A DNA stretch of 64,000 nucleotides from Planococcus lenghuensis. Its GTDB lineage: Bacteria; Bacillota; Bacilli; Bacillales_A; Planococcaceae. Shown in pieces: positions 29,781 to 37,942 of this stretch. The translations under genes were made by a program, and so were the position numbers. The stretch spans positions 2,398,001 through 2,462,000 of the forward strand of contig NZ_CP019640.1 of assembly GCF_001999905.1 (NCBI RefSeq), read 5' to 3'. The notes beneath the pieces were generated by a model, which was not told where the DNA came from, made no database searches, and worked only from the letters and a program-made list of their open reading frames with translations. Numbering within the stretch: position 1 is the stretch's first letter; each line of letters begins with the position of its first letter.

Positions 29781-31270
29781 ATACGCAATCCAACGATTGC
29801 TTACACCGATTATACCACGCAACCGGCTCTTCCGTCAGGTAAATTACTTGAACACGAAACCGCAGTTTCCACCCAAGGGCGCCGGCCGGCTCCCGCATTC
29901 AAACCGTATGATCCGAACCAGACCTTATGCATTCCTGATATTGGCGCCCTGATTCCCGACCATCATGTGGCTCGTGTGGTGGATCAACTGGTTGAGGCTT
30001 ACCCTGAGGAAGTGTTGACCGCCTGCTACCCTGGCGGCGGGCGGCCACCCTTCCACCCGAAACTGATGCTCAAAGTTATTCTCTATGCCTATTCCCAAAA
30101 AGTTTATTCCTGCCGGGGCATCGCCACGATGCTGCACGAGGATCTTCCGGCGATCTGGCTGGCGGCGATGCAGAAACCGGATTTCCGGACCATCAACCAT
30201 TTCCGGAGCGTCCGAATGGGAGCGGTCATCGATCAGTTATTCGAGTTCACTGTTTTGGAACTTCACCGGCAAGGGTTTGTCGAGTTTGAGAACTACTTCC
30301 TGGACGGGACGAAGATGGAAGCGGACGCCAATAAGTATAGCTTTGTCTTCCGTAAGGCGGTGACGGGGCAGGAAGCGAAACTGAAAATCAGAATCCAGGA
30401 AACGCTTCAGGAAATCCAGGAGATTGCCAAGGCGGAGGGATTGGAACTGGGCCAGCTGGCCGAGGAGCCGGCGGCTGTGGAATTGGCTTCAGTTGCGAAC
30501 CGGCTGGAAGACCAAGTGGATATCCTGACGGATCTCATCGCTGAGGAAAAGCTCGTGGAAAACAGAAAAGGACTCCGCAAACGGCACAGTCTCCTGAAAA
30601 AGAAAGTGAAACTGATTCGTGAAAACTTCATTCCTCGCCAAGAAACGTATGCGGAACAGCTCGCCGTCTGTGGAGAGCGCAACAGCTTCTCGAAGACGGA
30701 CCCGGACGCCACATTCATGCGGATGAAGGAAGATCATATGAAGAATGGCCAGCTGAAACCCGGATACAATATCCAGATGGCGACCGAGAATCAATTCGTG
30801 CTGTTCTATACCATTCATCAGCGCCCGGGAGATGCTCGCTGCCTGATTCCACATCTGGAAGCGCTGCAGGCATCTGCCCTGCCTATGCCGAAGACCATCG
30901 TCGCGGATGCCGGCTATGGAAGCGAAGAGAACTACCTCTACCTGATCGGGGATGAAAAAGAACCGCTTGCCGGCTTCCTGATCCCGTATGGCACCTATCT
31001 GAAAGAGCAGACGAAGAAGTTTAAAAACAATGAATGGAACGTGAAAAACTGGACGTATGAAGAAGCGGATGACCGATTCATCTGTCCAAACGGCCGCCGC
31101 GTCGTTTTCAAAAAATATCAGGAGAAGAAAACATCGAATTTGGACTTATCGCCATGGCGCATAATTTTCGGAAAGTGGCCGGTTTCCTCCGTTCACTTTC
31201 CGAAAAAGTAGACTTTAAAAAACAGGGAGAGAACAACCAATTGGTTATTCTCTCCCTGTTTTTAATTTAG
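29781..31270 (+). pseudogene. IS1182 family transposase, broken
   Basis: The frame from 29781 continues to 31211 and encodes a DUF772-type N terminus (KPYDPNQT...IPDHHVARVVDQL) and part of the DDE domain, with DGTKMEADAN and VADAGYGSEEN supplying the first two Asp. After the zinc-like segment FICPNGRRVVFKKYQ the protein jumps out of frame. The true C terminus (EFGLIAMAHNFRKVAGF) continues in another frame from 31136 to 31270. Roughly 60-80 residues including the expected catalytic Glu are missing. The position where a start is expected, 8 bases after AAAGGA, reads ATA (29781) rather than ATG; the first standard start is a GTG at 29967. It is therefore inactive. Confidence 0.85.
31219..31266 (+). 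terminator. Terminator of the IS transposase
   Basis: AACAGGGAGAGAA..AACC pairs with GGTT..TTCTCTCCCTGTT around AATT with one mismatch, followed by TTTTTAATTT. This stem of about 18 bp overlaps the end of the transposase remnant. Confidence 0.85.
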
Positions 31271-31304
31271 GGGGGCTTTTTGGACAGCCCCGTTTGTTTT
31301 TTTA

Positions 31305-34300
31305 TTATTTCCGATCCATTTCAATCAGCAGATCGCCTGTTGCAATCCCTTCATTCGGACTGACGTAAATCTCTCGGATGGTTCCATCAAATGGTGCCTG
31401 AACGGTCGTTTCCATCTTCATCGCCTCTGTTACCAGCAAATGGTCTCCGCGTCTTACTTCAGCACCTTTTTCTGTAACAACTTTCAGCACAGTGCCCGGC
31501 ATGGTCGCTCCGATATGGCTGTCGTCAGCAGGATTCGCCTTCAGGTGGGCCGCATTGTCAGTCTCTACTGCCATATCCTGAATGTTGATCTCCCGCGGCT
31601 GGCCATTCAGCTCAAAGTACATCGTCCGCATTCCGTTTTTCTGCGGTTCACCGATGGACACAAGCTTGATCATCAACGTTTTTCCTTTTTCAATCTCTAC
31701 TTGAATTTCCTCACCGAGACGCATGCCATATAGGAACGTCATCGTGTCCAACACCGAAACATTGCCGAACTGCTCATTGGTCGCTGTGTACTGATCAAAG
31801 ACTTTTGGATACAGCGCATATGCAAGCATTTCATGACTTGTTACCGGCCGATCCAGCTTCTGGAATAATTCTTCATTAATTCTTTCAAAATCAGCCGGCT
31901 CCAGCAATTCTCCTGGACGTACCGTAATCGGTTTTCTTCCTTTTAGAATGACTTTCTGAAGATCTTCAGGAAATCCGCCGTAAGGCTGACCGATATATCC
32001 TTCAAAGAATTCGATGACAGAATCCGGAAAATCAAGGGCTTCCCCTTTTGTCAAAACAGTTTCTTCATCCAGGTTATTCTGTACCATGAAGAGCGCCATA
32101 TCGCCCACCACTTTCGATGATGGAGTTACTTTGACCACATCGCCGAACAGCAGGTTCACCCGGGAATACATGTCTTTCACTTGCTCCCACCGGGCACCGA
32201 GACCAACGGCTTTCGACTGTTGCTGGAGATTTGAATATTGCCCACCCGGCATTTCGTGAACGTAAATTTCAGAATGCGGACTGTTCATTCCGCTCTCGAA
32301 ATCATGGTAGTAACGTCGCACATCTTCCCAGTAACGTGATAATTTCTCAAGCGACGCGACATCACCGCGCACTTCCCGCTTTCCGCCGCTCAATGCATAG
32401 TGAAGCGTACTTGCAGAAGGCTGGGAAGTCAGCCCCGCCATGGAACTCAACGCCGTATCCACGATGTCTGCTCCTGCTTCAATGGCTTTTGCATACAGGA
32501 ACACACCATTACCGCTTGTGTCATGCGTATGCAGATGGATCGGAAGCGAAACAGTCTCTTTAAGTTCTGAAATCAGGCGGTAAGCAGCTTCAGGCTTCAA
32601 GAGGCCGGCCATATCCTTGATCGCCAGAATGTGTGCGCCGGAATCTTCCAATGCTTTCGCCATTTCCTTATAGTAATTCAGTGTATACTTATCGCGGGAT
32701 GGATTCAGAATATCACCAGTATAGCAAATCGCCGCTTCCGCCACTTTTCCGGACTGCCGAACTTCATCAATTGCCACTTCCATGCCTTTCAGCCAATTGA
32801 GTGAATCGAAAATGCGGAATACATCAATTCCGGCGTGACCGGCCTGCCGGATGAATTCCCGAATAACGTTGTCGGGATAGTTCTTGTAACCGACCGCATT
32901 CGCACCCCGGAACAGCATTTGGAACATGACGTTCGGGATTTCTTTCCGGAGCTGGATCAGCCGCTGCCATGGATCTTCTTTGAGGAATCGGTACGACACA
33001 TCAAACGTCGCCCCTCCCCACATCTCTAGTGAAAACAGGTCCGGCTGCAGTCTGGCTGTCTCTTTGGCAATATCAAACAAGTCATAGGACCGGACACGGG
33101 TAGCGAGCAGCGACTGATGGGCATCACGCATCGTCGTATCCGTCAGCAGCACGTCCTGCTGGTTCTTGACCCATTTAATCAGCCCATCCACGCCTTCACG
33201 TTCAAGAATCTGTTTTGTTCCTTCCGATGCCGGTTGCCGGAGATCGACTTCCGGTTTCCGCGGGTCCGCATAAATCGGTTTAAGCTTTTTCTCAATTCCA
33301 GGAAATCCATTTACAGTAACGTTTCCGATATAGCTGAGCAGTTTCGTTCCACGGTCTTTCCGGACCGGAAAAATGAACAGTTCAGGTGTTGAGTCGATGA
33401 AACCGGTATCAAATTCACCGCTCAGGAATTTTTCGTGTTTTACTACGTTTTCCAGGAATGGAATATTCGTTTTAATCCCGCGGATTCGGAATTCCTGTAA
33501 GTTCCGATCCATTTTCGCAGCTGCTTCCTGGAAAGTAACCCCCCACGTGGATACTTTCACCAGCAACGAATCGTAGAAAGGTGTAATGACAGCTCCCTGG
33601 AATCCATTGCCTGCATCAAGCCGGACGCCAAAGCCGCCGCCAGACCGGTATGTCATCAATTTGCCTGCATCCGGCATAAAGCCATTCAGCGGATCTTCTG
33701 TTGTCACACGGGATTGAATGGCATGTCCGAACAGCGGAATTTCGTTTTGCTGCGGAATCCTCACTTCCGGCGAATGCAGGCTATATCCTTGGGCAATGTG
33801 AATTTGTGCATGCACAATATCGATCCCTGTCACCATTTCCGTAATTGTGTGTTCCACTTGGATTCTTGGATTTACTTCAATGAAGTAAAATTCATCATCT
33901 GCTACCAGGAATTCAACAGTTCCTGCGTTAACATAGGACACGTTATTCATCAGTTTAACAGCAGCTTCACAAATGCGGTTTCGGAGCTCGTCGGAAAGCG
34001 AATTTGAAGGAGCAATTTCCACTACTTTCTGGTGGCGCCGCTGAATGGAGCAATCCCGTTCGTACAGGTGGATGATATTTCCTGACATGTCCCCAAGGAT
34101 TTGGACTTCGATATGCTTGGGCTTACTGATGAATTTCTCCACATACATTTCATCCGATCCAAATGCCGCTTTTGCTTCAGATTTCGCCCGCTCGTATGCT
34201 TCCGGCAATTCCTCTGCGTTGTTCACAATCCGCATACCGCGTCCTCCGCCACCCAGTGACGCTTTAATCATCAGCGGAAAACCTGCGGATGCAGCAAAAT

Positions 34301-36967: not shown

Positions 36968-37173
36968 TGGTGCAGTGTGTGATCTGTGACATCCTTGAGG
37001 AGTTGGACAACACGGCACCTGAGGCAAAGCGATTGCGCAATCGGCCGATCCACACGTATATGTGCGCGGCTTGCCACGAACGCGTGACCGCACGGACGAA
37101 TGAGCGCATTGCGACCGGCAAGTTCCGATTTTACAGAAGTTCCCGAAGAATCGAAGGGGATTTCTATTCATGA
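36964..37173 (+). CDS. YlaI family zinc-ribbon protein (DUF2197)
   Basis: Small protein of 69 residues with two cysteine pairs (CVIC near the N terminus and CAACH in the middle) forming a zinc ribbon, and the conserved AKRLRNRPIHTYMC segment. The second ATG at 36967 is an equally good start. It is coupled by ATGA overlaps to both neighbours. Function unknown; matches B. subtilis ylaI in order. Confidence 0.88.
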   Translation: MMVQCVICDILEELDNTAPEAKRLRNRPIHTYMCAACHERVTARTNERIATGKFRFYRSSRRIEGDFYS

Positions 37174-37616
37174 AACTGCTGAAAGGTATTTGGATCGGGT
37201 TCTGGAGCGGCTTTATCCTCGCAGGTGTTTTGCGCTGGCTGGAAGCACTTACCGGCAAGCAAGTTTATTCGCTGCTGCTGAACATTGATTTCCTGCCTTT
37301 TGTAACCTCTGGAGATTGGTCGGAAACCGGGCTGTTCGTTCTCCATATCGGACTGTCTGTCGTCATCGGGATTGTTTATGTTTTCCTTGCAAAGAGACAG
37401 CGCTACACTTTCGGCCAGCTTTTTCTGATTAGCTTTCTGGTCGGTCTTCCTTTCTTCCTGCTGTACTTTCCGTTGGCCGCTTTAGCTGTGGAGCCACTCG
37501 TGTCGCCATTGGATCTCAATGCCTTTCTGTATTGGACTTTCGGACATTTTACATTTATCCTCGCCCTTCCGGTGCTCTATAAATTATTTGAACGCGAAAA
37601 CGCTGCCTCTCAATGA
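37170..37616 (+). CDS. Four-helix membrane protein of unknown function
   Basis: Protein of 148 residues with four hydrophobic helices (about 5-24, 50-70, 82-104 and 117-140). It looks like small YqhR-like membrane proteins, but the match is not certain. It is coupled to ylaI by an ATGA overlap. Its stop codon (37614-37616) lies in the loop of a long palindrome and its last residues RENAAS are encoded by the left arm. The convergent gene ylaH ends with the same residues from the right arm, and the two coding regions overlap by 7 bases. Confidence 0.7.
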   Translation: MKLLKGIWIGFWSGFILAGVLRWLEALTGKQVYSLLLNIDFLPFVTSGDWSETGLFVLHIGLSVVIGIVYVFLAKRQRYTFGQLFLISFLVGLPFFLLYFPLAALAVEPLVSPLDLNAFLYWTFGHFTFILALPVLYKLFERENAASQ

Positions 37617-37640
37617 GAAGCAGCGTTTTCGCGTTTTTCA
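37591..37640. terminator. Bidirectional terminator inside two convergent coding ends
   Basis: AACGCGAAAACGCTGC (37591-37606) pairs perfectly with GCAGCGTTTTCGCGTT (37620-37635), extended by TCTC/GAGA inside the loop. TTTTT follows on the plus side. The stop codons of both flanking genes (37614-37616 plus, 37612-37610 minus) are in the loop, so each arm is coding sequence for one gene and terminator for both. Confidence 0.9.
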
Positions 37641-37942
37641 CGCCATAAGCGAACTTTATAAAGCACTAAGATCAGCATCGCGATCAGCAATCCTTCAACG
37701 ACCGGCAGGAAGACCGCCAGAAACGTCAGGATTAAGCCGCCAAGCAAAAGAAACACACCGATGATGGCATTTTGCCAGAAGCCAAGCTTTTTGGCAAAAC
37801 CCAGCTTGTACACAATTGCTGACAGCACGAATATGATGGCGAGAAGTGCAACTCCCGCTACATCATAATTCGGCAAGGTGCTATACAGAAAACGTGCGAC
37901 AGGGTACATATTTTCATACACGAATTGCTGTTCGGCTCCCAC
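37610..37942 (-). CDS. YlaH-like membrane protein
   Basis: Protein of 110 residues with three hydrophobic helices (about 28-48, 55-75 and 77-96) of the YlaH family. It starts MGAEQQFVYENMYPVARFLY after a GGGTG site and ends KRENAASH, the RENAAS being encoded by the palindrome shared with the convergent gene. The B. subtilis homologue is also next to typA. Function unknown. Confidence 0.85.
   Translation of the reverse strand: MGAEQQFVYENMYPVARFLYSTLPNYDVAGVALLAIIFVLSAIVYKLGFAKKLGFWQNAIIGVFLLLGGLILTFLAVFLPVVEGLLIAMLILVLYKVRLWREKRENAASH

Follow-up and report, generated by a model that had tools for sequence, protein, structure and literature searches.

Gene content of the locus

The window, by which we mean the whole 64,000-nt stretch of DNA that was analyzed, belongs to a host genome of the Planococcus group of Bacillota. 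Two convergent genes meet within it. A conserved membrane-protein gene encoding 148 aa lies on the plus strand (37170 to 37616), and ylaH, encoding 110 aa and assigned to PF14036 (Pfam E 1.5e-22), lies on the minus strand (37610 to 37942). The neighborhood consists of typA, ylaH, the plus-strand gene, a DUF2197 gene (PF09963), a 170-aa ORF, a DUF1507 gene (PF07408), and ftsW. By position, we take the DUF2197 gene to be ylaI and the 170-aa ORF to be ylaL; the DUF1507 gene is presumably ylaN.

The plus-strand protein matched no Pfam or NCBIfam family above the cut-off and had no relatives in the viral contigs searched. Relatives at E<1e-20 were found in 56 of 261 genomes, covering 3 of the 19 genera of the family, and the closest named relative that we found was from Indiicoccus explosivorum (76% identity). 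Throughout the genus, both ORFs of the pair are conserved and show constraint at the protein level, and they overlap at their coding ends. No ylaH match at E<=0.001 was obtained in either g10 genome searched (G010 and G028), whereas all other family genomes searched have one.

Anatomy of the shared palindrome

The last codons and the stop codon of each gene lie in one palindrome at 37591 to 37635. Its left arm (AACGCGAAAACGCTGC, 37591 to 37606), on the A-tract side, encodes RENAA of the plus-strand protein, and its right arm (GCAGCGTTTTCGCGTT, 37620 to 37635), on the T-tract side for plus-strand transcription, encodes RENAA of YlaH on the minus strand. A preliminary description of this DNA had placed the last codons of both genes in a perfect 16-bp inverted repeat and had given the overlap of the reading frames as 7 bases; both statements hold, in coordinates as well as anatomy, with TCA-A-TGA as the 7-nt overlap. 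It had also placed both stop codons in the loop. The stop codon of the plus-strand gene (TGA, 37614 to 37616) and that of ylaH (TGA, read as TCA on the plus strand, 37610 to 37612) are indeed within the palindrome, but they occupy an inner stem and a 3-nt loop rather than an open loop. What had been called the loop is mostly palindromic because the inverted repeat continues inward past one C.A mismatch (37607/37619) into TCTCA/TGAGA. This inner palindrome, C-TCTCA-A-TGAGA-A (37607 to 37619), holds the mirror-symmetric stop word TCA-N-TGA around the center base, 37613. The full element is an inverted repeat of 22 positions with that single mismatch and a 1-base center.

The plus-strand protein ends in FERENAASQ and YlaH in EKRENAASH. 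The codon register of the arm is the same on each strand, which gives these two unrelated proteins the same C-terminal codons. The single stop word terminates both reading frames, and the A-tract is read as Lys/Glu-Asn, the stem as Ala-Ala-Ser, and the center as Gln or His.

Each strand is predicted to fold into a single long hairpin (-33.6 and -36.4 kcal/mol; z of -8.2 and -7.4), and none of 200 shuffles folded equally well. Given its sequence, its folding, and its conservation with compensatory change, the whole hairpin (37590 to 37639) is a putative bidirectional intrinsic terminator. Against a terminator, the T-tracts in the window are interrupted (T4-CGCG-T5 after the plus-strand stem core and T4-CGCG-TT after the minus-strand stem core, that is, U4-CGCG-U5 and U4-CGCG-UU in the transcripts), and a simple terminator scan did not include this site. 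The corresponding tracts are T4/T5 in relatives and T5 to T6 on both sides at a second locus, described below.

The 4.15-Mb genome contains a single copy of the arm pair AACGCTGC...GCAGCGTT, on which ground we rejected a repeat family or an uptake signal. Among 57 strong hairpins in a 384-kb sample of the same genome, only this one has an ORF ending from each side.

Conservation and paired change in relatives

We extracted junction sequences from the genomes with relatives of the plus-strand gene. The identical 7-nt overlap and hairpin are present in 44 distinct sequences from the window's genus and Planococcus, representing more than 40 species; one genus-mate (L004) has a variant with a 4-nt overlap. 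Tails on both sides follow the pattern R[E/K]NA[A/V]S[Q/H]. The RENAAS that the preliminary description gave for both proteins is correct for this genome, but full identity is special to it, with relatives mostly having RKNA[A/V]S in the plus-strand protein and RENA[A/V]S in YlaH.

Offsets 1 to 16 from the center are complementary in all 44 sequences, except for a C.A at offset 6 in seven of them, and the outer pair is mismatched (A.C) in 43. At offset 7, a replacement of C-G by T-A, which occurred once on the tree, turned Ala into Val in both proteins (AAS/AAS to AVS/AVS). Offset 6 holds the wobble position of this codon in each gene and changed about six times, mostly from A-T to T-A; since paired bases share their codon position in the two genes, a change at the wobble position leaves both proteins unaltered. 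The center base flipped between A and T five times on the tree, each flip exchanging Gln and His between the proteins. Across 16 distinct sequences, 95% of cells are paired and two pairs covary, and the covariation score of 0.070 was reached in none of 500 shuffles, compared with 0.000 to 0.019 for slid controls. Overall, the stem is conserved by compensatory change, and an alignment of both 3' ends, the check that the preliminary description had called for, finds arm sequence, register, and peptide covarying across relatives.

More distant relatives differ. The ylaH hairpin in other genera is mostly past the stop codon, with coding overlap in several. Three species of genus g12 have a different palindrome at the ylaH pair, with a 14-nt overlap and the tails KKRSTSLR/KKRSASAS; in other g12 species the two genes are 41 to 437 nt apart, and the plus-strand protein of this genus can lack the tail and finish at YKKM. 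Ends that are unrelated, with a terminator past the stop codons, which the preliminary description had regarded as the mark of a chance event, are confined to these more remote relatives and to a few lineages in which the genes are separated, whereas 44 sequences keep both overlap and palindrome.

In one sequence that matches Planococcus koreensis (L095, from G129), the arm region is shifted so that the plus frame loses its register and runs on as an ORF antisense through ylaH for more than 500 nt, with the hairpin and the ylaH tail intact. The shift may be genuine or may reflect a sequencing error in a homopolymer.

A second locus with the same design

The best second case of a hairpin that ends two ORFs was found in Planococcus, where a MATE transporter gene (PF01554) is convergent with a gene for a conserved 79-aa protein present in 45 of 46 Planococcus genomes. 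The pair has the same TCA-N-TGA overlap, and both tails read KKLAA[Q/H], apart from one species with KKLAT in the small protein. Some relatives have KKIAA in both proteins, a paired replacement of Leu by Ile. All cells of the hairpin are paired across nine distinct sequences (100%), with three covarying pairs; its stem, too, is conserved by compensatory change, and G-U intermediates are present. The center takes all four bases. In other Planococcus species, the MATE and 79-aa genes are 54 to 87 nt apart and have a separate intergenic hairpin.

The preliminary description had called a terminator that codes in both directions unusual, which is right as far as it goes, but the arrangement is not unique, since the MATE gene pair repeats the design. 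Bidirectional terminators (PMC12207403) and overlapping convergent genes (PMC2174442) are each known in bacteria, and one could picture a single lineage in which a terminator lies by chance at the ends of two genes. Given that register and paired changes are conserved in 44 sequences and recur in design at the MATE locus, we regard chance as extremely improbable; with the same design in relatives, the palindrome is not a single-lineage accident.

Origin of the paired changes

Double changes between A-T and T-A at one pair of the ylaH palindrome occurred about four times, with no A.A or T.T intermediate remaining. In addition, all five central changes were exchanges of A and T, compared with 28% of A/T-origin changes at fourfold sites in the same genes, a test that was chosen post hoc. 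Template-switch (quasipalindrome) mutation predicts paired arm changes and spacer flips such as these, and homogenized arms with inverted spacers match its published signature (PMC8604942, PMC8794818). Unlike the described cases, which concern single genes or RNA genes, one putative event here would alter two unrelated proteins. Template switching is a plausible driver of the paired changes.

A stronger version would have template switching as the main process that keeps the arms identical, homogenizing them and inverting the spacer so that one event alters both proteins, with selection for termination secondary. Mutation alone cannot explain the absence of synonymous change at invariant pairs over deep divergence, and the outer mismatch has been long-lived (43 of 44 sequences). 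One-sided changes and intermediates also exist, as the C.A in seven sequences and the G-U pairs at the MATE locus illustrate, and the MATE-locus center is free to vary. Weighing both sides, we treat this stronger version as possible but doubtful.

Constraint on the shared tail

Counting backward from the last residue as codon 1, tail codons 2 (Ser), 4 (Ala), 5 (Asn), and 6 (Lys/Glu) show no synonymous differences in either gene across the 44 sequences. In the gene bodies, the median synonymous difference among same-residue comparisons is 0.60 for the plus-strand gene and 0.51 for ylaH. The gene bodies use three of these invariant codons only in a minority of cases: the tail Asn codon is AAC in 88 of 88 cases versus an AAT:AAC ratio of 172:62 in the bodies, where GCT accounts for 17% of Ala codons and TCT for 15% of Ser codons. 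Tail codons that are both disfavored and devoid of synonymous variation therefore indicate a constraint on the nucleotides, not on the peptide.

Lineages in which the gene pairs have been split bear on the same question. In one Planococcus lineage (L006), the genes of the ylaH pair are 113 nt apart, the plus-strand protein ends in NAVPQ with a hairpin of its own, YlaH still ends in NAASH, and the spacer retains a remnant of a plus-like tail. At the MATE locus, the genes are 476 to 937 nt apart in seven species, and the tail cores differ in five of these, as with KKLADH/KKLAAH and KKLADR/KKLAAQ; in L260, part of the earlier MATE tail can still be recognized next to the small gene. Tails mostly differ in split pairs, and identical tails are therefore found mostly where the palindrome is physically shared.

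The preliminary description had offered a degradation or interaction tag as one role for the tail. Selection on a C-terminal peptide common to two membrane proteins would fit a tail that is nearly identical in both and kept across more than 40 species, but the frozen synonymous sites are not expected from peptide selection. In addition, the last residue flips between Gln and His with the central base, the tails vary by genus (RENAAS, KKRSAS) and by locus (KKLAA), identity is mostly lost in the split pairs, and the g12 plus-strand protein can do without the tail. The terminal residues are thus not conserved independently of the nucleotide structure; tail identity does not look to be maintained by a need for the same peptide, and we consider a tag very unlikely.

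Two of the split MATE loci contain additional sequence. In L260 (G144), a 199-aa ORF (1197 to 1796) that looks by eye like an alpha/beta hydrolase separates the MATE gene from the small gene, and four further species have a gap of similar length (906 to 937 nt). In L259 (G140), an insertion of about 600 bp (1364 to 1960) parts the MATE gene from the 79-aa gene, with a full copy of the coding hairpin on each side; the insertion ends resemble inverted repeats (TTGTTGAGAAA...TTTCTCAACAA).

A putative terminator that codes in both directions

Taken together, the sequence comparisons make it likely that the palindrome is a bidirectional intrinsic terminator turned coding 3' end of both convergent genes, with the shared peptide as a by-product. 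Both transcripts would probably end at the palindrome, and we infer that selection acts on the hairpin and that the peptide is tolerated as its by-product. Terminators of B. subtilis and other Gram-positive bacteria often have an A-tract upstream (PMC12207403, PMC4824070), and A-tract terminators are able to act on both strands (PMC4824070). Alternatively, the hairpin could act mainly after transcription, by protecting mRNA 3' ends from exonucleases, as an RNase III site, or through 3'-end pairing of the two mRNAs. In favor of this, it is highly stable on either strand, and at the palindrome the two transcripts would complement each other. At both the ylaH and MATE loci, however, A/T-tracts flank a GC stem, as termination predicts, and we found no processing-specific evidence; we judge a mainly post-transcriptional role unlikely.

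In E. coli, a ribosome arriving at a stop codon beside a terminator represses that terminator (PMC4824070), which counts against the terminator reading. In B. subtilis, stop-to-terminator distances are short, a setting in which tight ribosome-polymerase coupling would interfere, and transcription-translation coupling is reported to be weak or absent (PMC12207403). Given the repression seen in E. coli, the arrangement best fits a polymerase that outruns the ribosome, and we infer that this may be the case in Planococcus.

Bidirectional terminators, overlapping convergent genes, and terminators that overlap coding ends are already known. Like a bidirectional intrinsic (Rho-independent) terminator, the element has a GC-rich stem and flanking A and T runs between convergent genes; unlike it, the stem, A-tract, and stop words are coding sequence of the two proteins, read in mirror register, and the changes by which the hairpin evolves affect the two proteins jointly. 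As in other convergent (tail-to-tail) overlapping genes, two coding 3' ends overlap briefly, but here the C-terminal peptides are alike and covary because a single palindrome is shared in place of separate terminators. In the coding palindromes of Nematomorpha mitochondria (PMC6649704), both inverted-repeat arms likewise code for protein and are maintained along with secondary structure; those lie within mitochondrial genes, whereas this palindrome is terminator-like and joins the ends of genes on opposite strands. Within the open-access literature covered by our search, we found no case of two unrelated proteins that owe an identical C-terminus, changing in step, to one coding palindrome shared between their genes.

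The palindrome offers a clear example from nature of a single regulatory DNA element that sets the amino-acid ends of two unrelated proteins, so that a replacement in one is coupled to the same replacement in the other. It also shows how far a transcription signal can invade coding sequence where RNA polymerase may outrun the ribosome. With more than 40 species, two loci, and both coupled and uncoupled lineages, it provides a comparative system for distinguishing stepwise compensatory changes in a stem from single template-switch events. A more speculative proposal, to which we give only tentative credence, is that shared coding palindromes tie unrelated C-termini into concerted evolution in Planococcus-type bacteria: a tail would first have been copied, reverse-complemented, onto the convergent neighbor, and later template switches would have changed both proteins in single steps. 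If so, an identical amino-acid replacement would arise in two unrelated genes simultaneously.

Other hairpins at paired gene ends

We scanned sampled stretches of five genomes, totaling 1.98 Mb, for hairpins. Those that end two ORFs are rare but recurrent in this sample; nearly all other strong hairpins are not common to two gene ends, a point against the terminator reading. Plausible doubly coding hairpins comprise about five independent in-register loci (ylaH, MATE, L137, L196, and L210), in addition to the g12 form of the ylaH pair, versus two off-register, numbers too small for a test. Some of the in-register excess is mechanical, as a stop codon inside a palindrome comes with its own mirror image. 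The shorter doubly coding cases end in KNK on both sides (L137) or NR on both sides (L196), in each case directly before the stop.

We also considered the CTCA-N-TGAG core as a genus-wide module and rejected it: a few more such hairpins were found in six genomes, and those examined, barring the ylaH and MATE loci, were ordinary or one-sided. Elsewhere in the window (31211 to 31305) and in L122 (12082 to 12202), two genes have the identical C-terminus VSSVHFPKK and are followed by 46-nt hairpins of nearly the same sequence; these may be copies of a mobile element.
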